The notes under the pieces were generated by a model, which worked only from the letters and a program-made list of their open reading frames with translations, searched no databases and was not told the DNA's origin. A stretch of DNA of 20,576 bases from a virus, in IMG/VR virus record IMGVR_UViG_3300003324_000089, positions 20,214 to 40,789 of that record. One strand, given 5' to 3'. Shown here one piece after another: positions 7,479 to 20,221 of this stretch (position 1 is its first letter; each line of letters opens with the position of its first letter). Both the position numbers and the translations under genes were made by a program.

Positions 7479-7711
7479 ACCCTACACCAGAACAGCAAGC
7501 CGAGGCTGCGAAAGCTGCCATAAATACATTCCTCAAACTAGCACCGCCTACGGGCATGGTTGCTATCGACACAATGGCAGAAACCGCGGCAGGATTCACG
7601 GCCCTACTAGCCGGCCTTATCCACTTGACGGATATTAACGGCCTAGATTGGGCGGAAATGACGGAAGTAGGGTACGAGCTTTACGATGCCGGATCGCACG
7701 TCACCCAGTAA
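7475..7711 (+). CDS. Hypothetical Ala-rich protein, 78 residues
   Basis: The GTG start at 7475 overlaps the helicase stop (GTGA) with GGAGGAGA just upstream, a strong coupled start. The product is helical and acidic (PTPEQQAEAAKAAINTFL, ETAAGFTALLAGLIHL, DWAEMTEVGYELYDAG) with one mildly hydrophobic middle segment that is too polar on its flanks to call a membrane helix. It overlaps the methyltransferase start by 26 bases. Family not recognised; its size and N-terminal make-up recall the protein at 2066. Confidence 0.72.
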   Translation: MNPTPEQQAEAAKAAINTFLKLAPPTGMVAIDTMAETAAGFTALLAGLIHLTDINGLDWAEMTEVGYELYDAGSHVTQ

Positions 7712-8702
7712 TGTGGATTCACGTGCCCTCCGAGTGCTTAGTGTATGCGCCGGAGGAGGCGGGCTCGACGCCGGCCTTAAACTCGCTGTCCCGACTGCTA
7801 GAACGGTCTGCTACTTGGAGAACGAAATCACGGAGGCAGGCGTCCTGGTTAAGGGTATTGCGAATGCATACCTGGACGACGCGCCTATCTGGACTGACCT
7901 TAAGACCTTCGACTATGCGCCGTGGCGCGGCCTCGTGGATTGCGTCATTGGAGGCTACCCGTGCCAGCCGTTCTCTCAAGCTGGATTACGTCGCGGAGTC
8001 GCTGACGAGCGCCACCTATGGCCTTACATCGCTAGAATCATCCGCGAGCTTGCTCCCTATATATGCTTCTTTGAGAACGTGGAAGGACATCTTACAAACG
8101 GGTATTACAACGTCGTCAAGCCGCACCTCGAAGGCCTGGGTTATCGCGTTACAGAAGGACTGTTTACGGCGGCAGAAGTTGGCGCTCCACAACAGCGAAA
8201 ACGGCTCTACATTCTCGCGATTAAACTGGCCGACTCCCGAGACAAAGCCAGGCCGGCCGAACGCAATGGCAAACGTGAGAAATCGGGAGAAGAATCTCGA
8301 AGCGCAAGCCGCAGCAACAGCATCGAGGCTATGGCCGACCCCTCGCGCGGGCTCCGAGGGGCAGGACTTCCGCGAGCAAAAGAAAATGCGCAAGTCGGGC
8401 GGCGAGTCGCTGGGCAACGCCGTGAATCGATGGGCGACTCCAACATCACGCGACGGCAAAGACGGTTTCGCGTGGGAGACGGCGGATACGAACTACCTAC
8501 TTGGCCGCCAGGTCCCACAAGCGCTCCTAGCGAATGGTATGATTACCTCAAAAGAGGTGGCACTTTCCCCGTCATTCGTAGAGGCGCTGATGGGCTGGCC
8601 TATAGGACTGACAGATTACACGTCCTTGGAAATGGAGTCATACCAGACGTGGCAGCTAAGGCATTCGTCTACTTGGCAGGAGAACTACTAAGAAATGCCT
8701 AA
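7686..8702 (+). CDS. dcm-like: DNA (cytosine-5) methyltransferase
   Basis: A 338-residue C5 methyltransferase, transferring methyl from S-adenosylmethionine to cytosine C5. Ordered motifs: I, SVCAGGGGLDAGL; IV, GGYPCQPFSQAG with catalytic Cys93; VI, FFENVEGH (Glu130); VIII, QQRKRLYILA; and X at the end, RTDRLHVLGNGVIPDVA. Between VIII and X, residues about 179-290 are Arg/Ser-rich and poorly conserved, the target-recognition zone. The start ATG 7686 lies inside the upstream gene with no clear ribosome binding site, and GTG 7713 is an alternative. No partner restriction enzyme is nearby, so it is probably an orphan enzyme that protects phage DNA. The same DNA is open throughout in another frame (separate entry at 8221). 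Confidence 0.93.
   Translation: MPDRTSPSNVDSRALRVLSVCAGGGGLDAGLKLAVPTARTVCYLENEITEAGVLVKGIANAYLDDAPIWTDLKTFDYAPWRGLVDCVIGGYPCQPFSQAGLRRGVADERHLWPYIARIIRELAPYICFFENVEGHLTNGYYNVVKPHLEGLGYRVTEGLFTAAEVGAPQQRKRLYILAIKLADSRDKARPAERNGKREKSGEESRSASRSNSIEAMADPSRGLRGAGLPRAKENAQVGRRVAGQRRESMGDSNITRRQRRFRVGDGGYELPTWPPGPTSAPSEWYDYLKRGGTFPVIRRGADGLAYRTDRLHVLGNGVIPDVAAKAFVYLAGELLRNA
8221..8691 (+). other. Second protein-like reading frame inside the cytosine methyltransferase gene
   Basis: A different + frame is open from about 7648 to the TAA at 8689-8691, across nearly the whole methyltransferase gene. Its last 156 codons look like protein rather than noise: LNWPTPETKPG at 8221, RLWPTPRAGS at about 8329, NRWATPTSRDGKDG at about 8425, and LSPSFVEALMGWPIGLTD near 8566-8619. 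From memory, WPTP repeats followed by such an FVExLMGxPIGxTD stretch are common at the ends of phage cytosine methylases. In the main frame the same bases encode LADSRD, AMADPSRG, SMGDSNITRR and GADGLAYRTDRLHVLGNG. No good internal start or ribosome binding site was found for the second frame, so expression would need a +1 shift or an unnoticed start. It may instead be a relic of a frame switch. Confidence 0.35.
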
Positions 8703-9705
8703 ACTTAAAGACCGTGAGGAGAAACCGCTCTTCGCCGCTGAAACTGTGCTCAAGTATGAGCGCCCCGACCGCGCTTATATTGCTAACGTTCTACGCCGTG
8801 TGCTTAAAGGCATCACCGCAGACGAGCTAGCGAAGTGGCTGACGACGCCAGCGCGAGATGCTTTCGAGTATCTACAGCTTATGCAGAACGGCCACACATG
8901 CCAGCGTATGAGTCTGCGCTACAACCCGCACCGCCTTGCAACGCGAGCGAACACGGCGAAGACTGTCATCGAAGCCCTGGGTGAAGACAATTTCTATTCC
9001 GGCCTCGCTCGCGTCTGGCTTGCTGATATGTATAATAACGCCCTCCCTGACGTGCTATACAACATGCTCCAGGCCGGCGTAAACGGGCTTCAATATGTCA
9101 ATGAGTTCCCGCCGCATGTTGCGCGTGACATCTATCGCCACTACGGCATCGATAGGCGCTCGCGTATACTCGACCCTTGCGCCGGCTGGGGTGGGCGCAT
9201 GATAGGCGCATCTGTCGTCTCGAATCACTACACCGGCTTTGAGCCTGCGTTCCAAACGTTTGTAGGCCTTGAGTATCTAGCTCGTGATTTGAACGAGTGG
9301 ACCGGCAGCTTCGAGGCGCATGTGTATTGCAAGCCTTTCGAGGACGCTAATCTACGGCCTAACCACTTCGATATCGCGCTGACTTCGCCGCCGTATTATG
9401 ACACAGAGAAATACAGCGAGGACGATGGTCAGTCCTACATCCGTTACAAGACGTTTGACAAGTGGGTAATCGGCTTCTACCTGCCGTTTATTGACAAGAC
9501 TATGGCAGCGCTCAAGCCCGGCGCGCCTTTCATACTCAACATCGGGGACCGTAAGTACCCGCTGCCTAGTGTTATGCGCGAGCACTGCGCTAAGATAGGC
9601 GTTAAAGTCGAGCGAATGCCGATGCGTCTATCTAACGGCGGCGGGCTGCGCAACAAAGAAAAAGGCGAAGGCGAAGTTTTCTTCGTGCTAACTAAGGAGA
9701 ACTAG
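8695..9705 (+). CDS. DNA methyltransferase, N4-cytosine or N6-adenine (SPPY type)
   Basis: A 336-residue amino-methyltransferase. The cofactor motif is LDPCAGWGGRMIGA (Asp160), followed by FEPAF, which would bind the ribose. The catalytic motif IV is TSPPYYDTEKYS (Ser231-Tyr234); SPPY is typical of N4-cytosine enzymes but also of some N6-adenine ones, so the product base is open. The first 130 residues (about to NEFPPHVARDI) are an extra helical domain that may choose the target. The start overlaps the upstream stop by 8 bases, with AGGAGAA about 10 bases before. No restriction gene is nearby, so it is likely a protective orphan methylase. Confidence 0.85.
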   Translation: MPKLKDREEKPLFAAETVLKYERPDRAYIANVLRRVLKGITADELAKWLTTPARDAFEYLQLMQNGHTCQRMSLRYNPHRLATRANTAKTVIEALGEDNFYSGLARVWLADMYNNALPDVLYNMLQAGVNGLQYVNEFPPHVARDIYRHYGIDRRSRILDPCAGWGGRMIGASVVSNHYTGFEPAFQTFVGLEYLARDLNEWTGSFEAHVYCKPFEDANLRPNHFDIALTSPPYYDTEKYSEDDGQSYIRYKTFDKWVIGFYLPFIDKTMAALKPGAPFILNIGDRKYPLPSVMREHCAKIGVKVERMPMRLSNGGGLRNKEKGEGEVFFVLTKEN

Positions 9706-9707
9706 AC

Positions 9708-12152
9708 GTGCCTCGTAACACTGCCTGCGAGCGCTGCCGCTTGCACCTGACAACCTCGAACGTTTGCATCTGGGGTAATGGCCCTAAACGTGCAGACATC
9801 ATGCTTATAGGCGAAGCTCCTGGCGCAGAGGAAGAGCAAGAGGGCCGGCCCTTCGTAGGGGCTGCTGGGCGCAAGATTGACGCACTGCTGGCCGAGGCCG
9901 GGCTGCCGCGTGATAAAGTCTACGTCTCGAACATTGTTAAGTGCCGGCCTCCGAACAACAGAGACCCACTCAAAGACGAAGCGGCAGCTTGCTTCACTTA
10001 TCTAGCGGAAGAGATTGCGCAAGTAAAGCCGAAAGTCATCGTTCTAATTGGCTTGCAAGCTGTCAAGGCGTTAACGTCCGAAACGGCCCTTGGAAAGGCA
10101 CGCGGCAAACTGCTACAAGTCTCCTCGAAAGTGCGCGTAGGAGACGCGCTCGTTATCGCGACGTATCACCCTGCCTGGGCTATGCACAATCCTGCGATGC
10201 TTAAGACTATGGAAGATGGCATCATTGAGGACTTGCGTTACGCTCAGAACCTCGTGAACCCTAGCAAAGCGAAAGGCGCGCGTAAGACGCTCGCAGACGG
10301 CTACACAATAGACGAGCTCCGCGACGCGTTAATGTGGCTACGCAAGGCGCGCGAGCTATCATGCGACCTCGAATGGACTGCGCCGCCGAAAGTCAAGTTC
10401 GGTTGGCCTTGGAATGGCGCTGAGCTTCTATCGCTGTCTTTGACAGGCAAGATTGAAGGCGGTCTTAGAACTGTAGCGCTCGCCTGGCCGGCGCGTGAGA
10501 AAAGCGCTGAGAAAGTGCGGGCGATGCTGAGCGCGTTCCTGCGCAAGCGCCCCATCTTCAACCACAACATCATGGCAGACGCAATCTGGCTGCTGTCTAA
10601 GAATGTCGAGTTCTCTATCAATGGTGATACGATGCTGTTGTCGTACTTGCTTGACGAGAACCGCCGGGCTGGCCTTAAGGGTCTAGCGCCGCTAGTTGCG
10701 GGCGTAGCTGCGGGCTGGGAGACGAAGCCATGGCATCGCCGGCCCGAGTCGCACGCTGGCTGGCAGGAGCTACTCGATTACAACGCTGACGACACAGAGA
10801 ACACTTACAAACTACGAGATGCGCAAGTGGCAGAGCTTGTTAAGCTCGCGCCAATGCGTGCTCGAAACATCGCGCGTGTCTATTCGCGTTTGCTCGTGCC
10901 TGCTGTCAAGCCGTTTGCTCACGCTGCGCTCTACGGCTTGCCTATCAATCGTAAGAAGCTCGAAGCGCTACGTAAGACGTACGAAGCGCGTAGGACGAAC
11001 GCTATCAAGCACCTTGCGCGTTTAACGCAGCTTCGCGAGGACAAGGCCGAAGAGCTTGCGATGTCCCCCGCGAAAGTCAAAGACTTCGCTCGTGCAGCGT
11101 TCGGCCTCGAAATCGAGACGAGCCGCGAGGAAGAGCTAGGGCCGTACGCCGAGCAATACCCGGCACTTAAGCACATTAAGGAGATTAAGCATCTCTCCAA
11201 GTTCTTAAGCACTTACATTCGCCCCTGGGCGCGGATGCTAGACAGGCAGAACGATGGCCGCTTGCATAGTATCTATCTGCTAGGCGCCACACGAACAGGC
11301 CGGCTCAGCGCTGATGTTGAGGAGGGCGCGTCTGCGCTCTTGATGCCACGCGATTTCGAGATGCGCGACCTCGTAGACGCTGAGGCCGAAGATAGCGAGT
11401 ATGAAATCCTGACGGCTGACTACAGCCAGCTAGAGCTTCGCATAGCAGCATGGCTCTTCCCTGAATACAACATGCGCAAGCTCTATCAGGCGGGCGCCGA
11501 CTTGCATCGCACTTCGGCCGCTTACATGGTCGCTAAAGCGCATCGTCCTGACATCGATGCTGAGCGCTTTCGACGCAACCGCAAGAAGTGGGAAGCGCGT
11601 GTCACGAAAGAAGAGCGACAGGCTGCTAAGGGAGAGAACTTCGGCCTACTCTACGGGATGCAAGAGCTACACTTTGCCGCGTACGTCGAGCAGAATTACG
11701 GCGTAAAGCTGACACCTGCTCAAGCGCATACTACCTACGAAGAGCACTTCAAACTTTACGATGGCCTACGGCCGGCCCATGCTCGCATGATTGAAGAGGC
11801 TAACCGCAAGGGTTACACGCTTACGCCGTTCGGGCGCTATCGATACGAGATAGAAGCGACGAAGGTTATCAACACGCCTATCCAAAGCACAGGCTCAGAC
11901 CTTGGCGTCTTCGCGTTCACACTTATTTACGAGGACTTGCAACGCGAGCTTGAAGCGGTCGACGCTCAGCTTATCGGCTTCGTCCATGACGCTGTTATCG
12001 TGCGCTCGAAAAAGGCGTTACGGGAGCAAGTCTCAGTCATCATCAAACAGAACATGGAGAACCCGCCACTACAGCGCGTAGGAATTGACGAGATTCCTGT
12101 CCCGTTAGTGGCGGAAGTTGCGCACGGTCCTACGTGGGCAAAAGCGTCATAA
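9708..12152 (+). CDS. Uracil-DNA glycosylase / 3'-5' exonuclease / family A DNA polymerase fusion
   Basis: An 814-residue replicative enzyme. Residues 1-190 are a family 4 uracil-DNA glycosylase: GEAPGAEEEQEGRPFVG, HPAWAMHNP (His154) and four Cys (7, 10, 79, 95) spaced as for a 4Fe-4S cluster. Residues about 195-370 are a DnaQ-type proofreading domain: DLE (Asp220, Glu222), NHNIMAD (Asp291), YNADD (Tyr358, Asp362). Residues about 400-814 are the polymerase: motif A DYSQLELRI (Asp571), motif B KGENFGLLYG (Lys641, Phe645, Tyr649), motif C FVHDAV (Asp761). The usual HDE of motif C is HDA. There is no 5'-3' nuclease domain. Similar glycosylase-polymerase fusions are known, for example in SPO1-type phages. 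The start is GTG 9708 with AAGGAG about 10 bases upstream. Confidence 0.95.
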   Translation: MPRNTACERCRLHLTTSNVCIWGNGPKRADIMLIGEAPGAEEEQEGRPFVGAAGRKIDALLAEAGLPRDKVYVSNIVKCRPPNNRDPLKDEAAACFTYLAEEIAQVKPKVIVLIGLQAVKALTSETALGKARGKLLQVSSKVRVGDALVIATYHPAWAMHNPAMLKTMEDGIIEDLRYAQNLVNPSKAKGARKTLADGYTIDELRDALMWLRKARELSCDLEWTAPPKVKFGWPWNGAELLSLSLTGKIEGGLRTVALAWPAREKSAEKVRAMLSAFLRKRPIFNHNIMADAIWLLSKNVEFSINGDTMLLSYLLDENRRAGLKGLAPLVAGVAAGWETKPWHRRPESHAGWQELLDYNADDTENTYKLRDAQVAELVKLAPMRARNIARVYSRLLVPAVKPFAHAALYGLPINRKKLEALRKTYEARRTNAIKHLARLTQLREDKAEELAMSPAKVKDFARAAFGLEIETSREEELGPYAEQYPALKHIKEIKHLSKFLSTYIRPWARMLDRQNDGRLHSIYLLGATRTGRLSADVEEGASALLMPRDFEMRDLVDAEAEDSEYEILTADYSQLELRIAAWLFPEYNMRKLYQAGADLHRTSAAYMVAKAHRPDIDAERFRRNRKKWEARVTKEERQAAKGENFGLLYGMQELHFAAYVEQNYGVKLTPAQAHTTYEEHFKLYDGLRPAHARMIEEANRKGYTLTPFGRYRYEIEATKVINTPIQSTGSDLGVFAFTLIYEDLQRELEAVDAQLIGFVHDAVIVRSKKALREQVSVIIKQNMENPPLQRVGIDEIPVPLVAEVAHGPTWAKAS

Positions 12153-14641: not shown

Positions 14642-15340
14642 ATGGCTAAAATCACTATTAACACCAAGAAGGTTCAGCCGGCCCACAGCGGCGCGCGGCG
14701 TGATTACATCAAGCCGGGCTTCTACCAGTTCAAGGTCGTTGACTACAGCGACAAGTCGAGCGCCGGCGGCAAGGTGATGCACGCGTTTACGTCCGAAGTC
14801 ATCTCAAAGGGCGACCAGGCCGGCAAGAAGATTACCGACCGCTTTGCGATGCCGCGTAACAGCAAAGAGTCCCAGTTCCCGGTCGAGCGTCTGCTGGCGT
14901 TCCTCATCGCGTGCGGCGCGAAGACCGGCGGCACAATCAACGCCGAGGGCTCAAAGCTAGTTGGCCGCACCTTCTACGCTGAGGTGTTCGACCAGCAAGA
15001 AGAGGCTCGCCAGGGCGCCGATGGCAAGAACTACCCGGCGCGCGTCGTCTCGACTCTCGCGTACCCCGACCCGAAGGAGGAGGACGAGGAAGAGGAGGAC
15101 GAGGAGGACGACGAAGAAGACGAAGACGAAGAGGATGAAGAAGACGAGGACGAAGAAGAGGAAGAGCCGGCCCCAAAAGCGCGACGCTCTTCCGCTCGCT
15201 CTTCGCGCAAGGCTACCGCCTCGTCAAACCGCCCTGGCAAGTCCGAGTCTTCGGCCAGCCGCTCTAGCAAGAGCAAGGCACCTGCGAAGTCGTCTCGCAA
15301 GTCACGCGACGAGGAAGAGGACTTCCCGTTCGATGACTAG
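14642..15340 (+). CDS. ssDNA-binding-like protein (DUF669-like) with acidic tract and acidic tip
   Basis: A 232-residue protein in three parts. Residues 1-145 are an OB-like core (PGFYQFKVVDYSDKSSAGGK, TDRFAMPRN, KLVGRTFYAEVFDQ). Residues about 146-176 are an almost pure Asp/Glu run. Residues about 177-222 are Ser/Lys/Arg-rich, and the protein ends DEEEDFPFDD, an acidic aromatic tip like the one with which SSB and T7 gp2.5 recruit partners. Codon use is strongly C/G-ending in the core, suggesting abundance. AAGGAGA precedes ATG 14642. It follows the Sak4-like ATPase by 8 bases, an order common in phages (AAA_24 then DUF669). Fold and function are inferred, not demonstrated. Confidence 0.75.
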   Translation: MAKITINTKKVQPAHSGARRDYIKPGFYQFKVVDYSDKSSAGGKVMHAFTSEVISKGDQAGKKITDRFAMPRNSKESQFPVERLLAFLIACGAKTGGTINAEGSKLVGRTFYAEVFDQQEEARQGADGKNYPARVVSTLAYPDPKEEDEEEEDEEDDEEDEDEEDEEDEDEEEEEPAPKARRSSARSSRKATASSNRPGKSESSASRSSKSKAPAKSSRKSRDEEEDFPFDD

Positions 15341-20204: not shown

Positions 20205-20221
20205 GAGGGGGGTAGCAGCGT

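Follow-up and report, generated by a model that had tools for sequence, protein, structure and literature searches.

The window analysed here is a 20,576-nucleotide stretch of viral DNA (IMG/VR virus record IMGVR_UViG_3300003324_000089, positions 20,214 to 40,789), and the element in question is a cytosine-C5 DNA methyltransferase gene at window positions 7686 to 8702 on the plus strand. It is very probable that two fully overlapping genes at this position encode a single heterodimeric C5 DNA methyltransferase, composed of an alpha subunit read in the main frame and a beta subunit read in the +1 frame. Both frames are open and under selection, the constraint passes from one frame to the other at motif VIII, the interlocked start codons are conserved, and in relatives one frame is lost once motifs IX and X share the other. 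From the sequences, we infer that beta is translated in the phage, pairs with alpha and is required for methylation.

The main open reading frame (ORF; 7686-8702, plus strand) starts at ATG 7686 or GTG 7713 and gives an alpha protein of about 330 amino acids. It matches PF00145 (C5 cytosine-specific DNA methylase; residues 16-191, E 5.7e-31) and phrog_363 (E 2.2e-50), and it carries motifs I-VIII of the catalytic core, including PCQ and ENV, as well as motif X (LGNGVIP, 8625-8646). The +1 frame is open from 7648 to 8691 on the same strand, as are all the features described below; beta has its own start at 7711, and its ORF of 326 amino acids (7711-8691) is nested within the main ORF. An earlier reading, made from the sequence only, had reported this ORF layout and had noticed the double openness at 8221-8691. 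The layout was borne out, and the openness is real and extends beyond that segment, the second reading starting at 7711 and not at 8221. The +1 frame matches phrog_1008, which is annotated as "DNA methyltransferase" (E 1.1e-14), and its final 156 codons hold WPTPE, WPTPR and WATPT together with LSPSFVEALMGWPIGLTD. The W(P/A)TP repeats lie in the recognition region that comes after motif VIII (8221-8568), which in relatives evolves mainly in the beta frame, and LSPSFVEALMGWPIGLTD forms a motif-IX-like block (8560-8613), with motif X located 50 nt past its ExLMG motif. The earlier statement that the main frame has all C5 motifs had to be corrected, as only motifs I-VIII and X (GNGVIP) are found there. 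On inspection of the main frame, motif IX and the recognition domain were not found in the same chain as the core, the LxPxxVExLMGxPxG block being present in the +1 frame only. A Pfam search of 35 members found no family for beta; the window beta gave a beta-propeller match below the cut-off (E 0.0004), which was seen in 1 of the 35 and set aside as chance.

The openness of the second frame was evaluated by codon shuffling, in which the main protein and its codon counts were preserved. In the window overlap (7711-8688, 326 codons), the +1 frame has no stops against 8.7 expected and none of 20,000 shuffles gave a value as low, while the +2 frame, used as a control, has 19 stops against 16.6 expected. 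The segment 8221-8691 taken alone is weak, with no stops against 2.6 expected (P 0.04). Among 131 related genes, 6 stops were observed in the +1 frame between motifs IV and X against 384.5 expected, and the +2 frame was neutral (1337 observed, 1329 expected); since the genes are related, such totals are not independent tests, and the excess spans orders of magnitude. In two large subfamilies, +1 stops were depleted in every region from motif I to the recognition region, the depletion being absent after GN. In the parts upstream of motif VIII, the window subfamily has no +1 stops, where 92.6 and 74.8 were expected. Genes with a low guanine-cytosine (GC) content likewise keep the +1 frame open.

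Substitutions were analysed in 43 independent close pairs. In the core (motifs IV-VIII), changes peak at main-frame position 3 (0.052, 0.027 and 0.177 for positions 1-3), whereas after motif VIII they peak at main-frame position 1, which is position 3 of beta (0.201, 0.066 and 0.080). After motif VIII, the identity is 0.884 for beta, 0.770 for alpha and 0.747 for the third frame. From these position-specific rates and identities, it follows that the protein that matters most changes frame at motif VIII: the main frame is conserved upstream and the +1 frame downstream. Selection in the main frame only, which had been named as a finding that would speak against a second coding frame, is therefore not what the substitution patterns show; selection acts in both frames. 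The similarity of the window beta to other betas also exceeds the level imposed by alpha, with a mean z of 4.2 for the core (third-frame control, 1.7) and of 2.1 for the recognition region (control, 0.5).

The same organization is found in a wide range of relatives. A set of 142 sequences combined the window with the first phage loci and with IMG/VR loci retrieved by main-frame proteins only; the offset of the second frame is always +1, and the two ORFs overlap by more than 300 nt in 140 of them, the remaining two being a 287-nt overlap and a truncated locus. Reciprocally, all 80 bacterial-genome loci fetched by the +1-frame alignment also have the main frame; with the +1 protein kept constant, they contain 1 main-frame stop where 341 are expected. 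Distant homologues of about 30% identity, from Klebsiella, Paenibacillus, Acinetobacter, cyanobacterial, Burkholderia and other phages, have an open +1 frame and a +2 frame full of stops. The search for homologues with a second frame broken by stops thus showed that dual genes keep it open. As tblastn queries, the main protein and the terminal 156 codons of the +1 frame matched the same DNA in phages C72C1 and ABMM1, each in a different frame. Database proteins ending in the +1 frame do exist: both frames are annotated as methylase in some records (phages Bloom and K1ind2) and only the +1 frame in others (L015 and L012). The proposal that one DNA, read in two frames, gives the two known methylase endings, and that this gene keeps both, was thus upheld and holds generally among the relatives. 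When viral contigs were scanned with nothing but the window alpha, no relatives came up, and these were found only via alignments and other relatives; one phage search used a composed, consensus-like +1-frame query, solely for choosing records. In one IMG/VR locus, an in-frame TAG (L094:1083-1085) breaks alpha where relatives have W, and beta is intact. In two other loci (L004 and L010), beta has no stop of its own past the LMG block and continues in frame into the downstream gene, which encodes an endonuclease VII and an N6-adenine methyltransferase, respectively.

All loci were assigned to classes by their motif patterns, and those without clear patterns were excluded. Class D, in which the LMG block is in the +1 frame and motif X in frame 0, comprises 163 genes, with frame 0 open in 161 and the +1 frame in 162. 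In class F (19 genes; Tweety gp72 type), both blocks are in frame 0 and the +1 frame is open in none; its 61 stops against 64.2 expected represent no depletion. In class S (13 genes; ICleared gp78/gp77 type), both blocks are in the +1 frame, which is open in all 13 genes, and frame 0 is open in none. Hence, a frame persists only while it carries a block that the enzyme needs, a pattern that lends indirect support to a need for both polypeptides in methylation. The spacing between ExLMG and GN is 50 nt, not a multiple of three, in most of the class D genes listed, and a multiple of three in the class F and S genes listed. These fused and split layouts come from actinophage relatives. In a tree of the core, classes F and S are placed among class D with 7 class changes on the best tree, although the branches with strong support require only about 3 per class and the root is arbitrary. 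In the split actinophage methylases L142, L143, L145 and L146, the second ORF is in the +1 frame and is annotated from TTG or a similarly weak start; it may be translated by frameshifting or by coupled re-initiation.

The starts of the two genes are interlocked. In the window, the sequence TAATGTG (7709-7715) contains the TAA of the upstream ORF (7709-7711), the ATG of beta (7711-7713) and the GTG of alpha (7713-7715), the final base of the TAA being the first base of the beta start and the GTG overlapping the beta ATG. The same ATGTGG arrangement occurs in relatives, and in the window subfamily the beta protein usually opens with MW or MSW where alpha starts. There are two recurrent layouts: AUGUGG, where the alpha GUG comes two bases after the beta AUG, and NUGAAUG, where the alpha start is four bases ahead of the beta AUG. 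AGGAGG-like sites are present upstream of several interlocked starts.

The assignment of the LMG block rests on structure and position. In class F single-chain proteins the block is found between the recognition region and motif X, the position of motif IX in C5 enzymes. A model of the class F protein L233 (predicted local distance difference test score, pLDDT, 63) is confident in the core and the C-terminus, with disordered repeats, and aligns with M.HhaI from one end to the other (Z 22.8, root-mean-square deviation 3.8, 239 residues). The block would accordingly represent the C5-methylase motif IX, in the window by way of this fused relative.

Several observations weigh against the two-subunit interpretation. 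Searches of the PDB with the isolated C-terminal block and with the beta profile gave no methylase, only chance matches to antibodies and to the MS2 coat protein, respectively. Modelled alone with AlphaFold, beta gives a poor structure (pLDDT 54.5, predicted template modelling score 0.22), which would fit a subunit that folds on its partner without proving so. The N-terminal half of beta resembles nothing known, and in close pairs its conservation is barely above that of the third frame (0.809 against 0.793). The beta start in the window is without a clear Shine-Dalgarno sequence.

In the proposed mechanism, ribosomes would start in either frame at the interlocked codons, which are NUGAAUG or else AUGUGG, with AUG used for beta and GUG for alpha in the latter. 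Alpha would give the catalytic domain that binds S-adenosylmethionine (motifs I-VIII) and motif X, and beta would give the target-recognition region and motif IX. The DNA is conserved mainly for alpha up to motif VIII and mainly for beta beyond it, each frame staying open through the half of the other, which may allow each protein to reach its own essential block.

The sequence-only reading had offered an overlapping gene, a frameshift product and a frame-switch relic, of which the overlapping gene fits best. Programmed +1 frameshifting near motif VIII would join the alpha core with the recognition region and motif IX of beta in one polypeptide, with no separate beta. The change of the constrained frame at motif VIII is in keeping with it, and so are the fused single-chain relatives and split genes such as L142, whose second ORF shares 23 nt with the first and has TTG as its only start. 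It is nevertheless unlikely: the openness of the +1 frame extends upstream of motif VIII and the interlocked starts are conserved, neither of which frameshifting needs, and in the window the fusion product would be without motif X. Beta could also be a real overlapping protein whose role has nothing to do with methylation, for instance a regulator or a counter-defence protein, as its lack of a Pfam family and its unfamiliar N-terminal half might suggest; but beta decays exactly when motif IX comes into frame with motif X, and single-chain methylases physically contain its C-terminal part, which makes such a role distinctly improbable. That the +1 frame is a relic, formerly the ending of the gene and now decaying, has very little probability left, even though switches of frame do occur, as seen from the fused and split relatives. 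The dual genes are depleted of stops and show no decay, the +1 frame is better conserved after motif VIII, and the substitution pattern in the 43 close pairs refutes the idea. The least probable explanation by far, a shadow ORF whose openness and apparent conservation come from the main protein and codon bias only, can draw on the weakness of segment 8221-8691 alone (P 0.04) and on the fact that LADP-type words in the main frame automatically yield WPTP in the +1 frame at high GC, but it is refuted by the stop depletion (shuffles that keep those constraints predict 384 stops where 6 are seen, and low-GC genes are open too), by the frame-decay classes, in which single-frame relatives lack the depletion, and by the +1-frame periodicity of changes downstream of motif VIII.

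With the two-subunit enzyme as the preferred interpretation, it is likely that the C5 methyltransferases of a very large phage and prophage family are obligate heterodimers, encoded by near-fully overlapping genes with interlocked AUG/GUG starts and one ribosome-binding site. The recognition domain would then lie in another frame than the catalytic one, and the single-chain and split enzymes of actinophages would repeatedly have arisen from, or become, such a state. In more than 200 sampled loci, ranging from cyanophages to Paenibacillus phages and alphaproteobacterial genomes, about 1 kb of DNA is dual-coding over most of its length. Since annotation often retains only one of the frames, the annotation, cloning or modelling of many phage methylases may have covered just half of the enzyme, and the single-frame and split relatives could serve as a natural experiment on the persistence and break-up of overlapping genes.

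In the surroundings of the gene, the beta stop (8689-8691) ends three bases ahead of the next ATG at 8695, where a gene (8695-9705) that overlaps the end of alpha begins; its product resembles an N6/N4 DNA methylase (PF01555, weak, below the cut-off). Further downstream, a single ORF (9708-12152) combines a uracil-DNA glycosylase superfamily domain (PF03167) with a family A DNA polymerase (PF00476), and a protein with a long run of acidic residues (14642-15340) gives rise to long repetitive open frames on both strands.

The principle of a C5 methyltransferase made of two polypeptides is known, M.EaeI being of this kind as well as M.EcoHK31I, whose small ORF lies within the large one in a different frame, as in the window. 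The breadth of the present family, its interlocked starts and its pattern of frame decay, on the other hand, appear to be undescribed in the open-access literature, in which only M.EcoHK31I and M.AquI are mentioned as overlapping or heterodimeric methylases. The phrog_1008 protein is nowhere treated there as an overlapping subunit, and no functional paper was found there on "Mte8-like", the name given to one frame in K1 phages. Phrog_1008 and the double annotations in phages Bloom and K1ind2 represent the same +1-frame protein, already predicted in databases and named there by similarity only. A phage methylase with a hidden out-of-frame HNH endonuclease was considered and rejected as a parallel, as it contains an inserted element that differs from the +1 frame (PMC11855218). 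In M.EcoHK31I, the large subunit contains motifs I-VIII and X and the predicted recognition domain, while the small subunit contains motif IX (PMC3404938). At the level of sequence, the window gene is similar, with motifs I-VIII and X in one frame and a putative motif IX in the other, the block being counted as motif IX because of the fused relatives. It differs in that beta is almost the size of alpha and starts at interlocked codons, and in that the recognition region evolves in the beta frame rather than being predicted in alpha. M.AquI is likewise a two-chain C5 methylase with motif IX on the second chain; however, its second chain carries both motifs IX and X, whereas motif X of the window gene is in the alpha frame, and its arrangement is matched instead by the split actinophage methylases L142, L143, L145 and L146.
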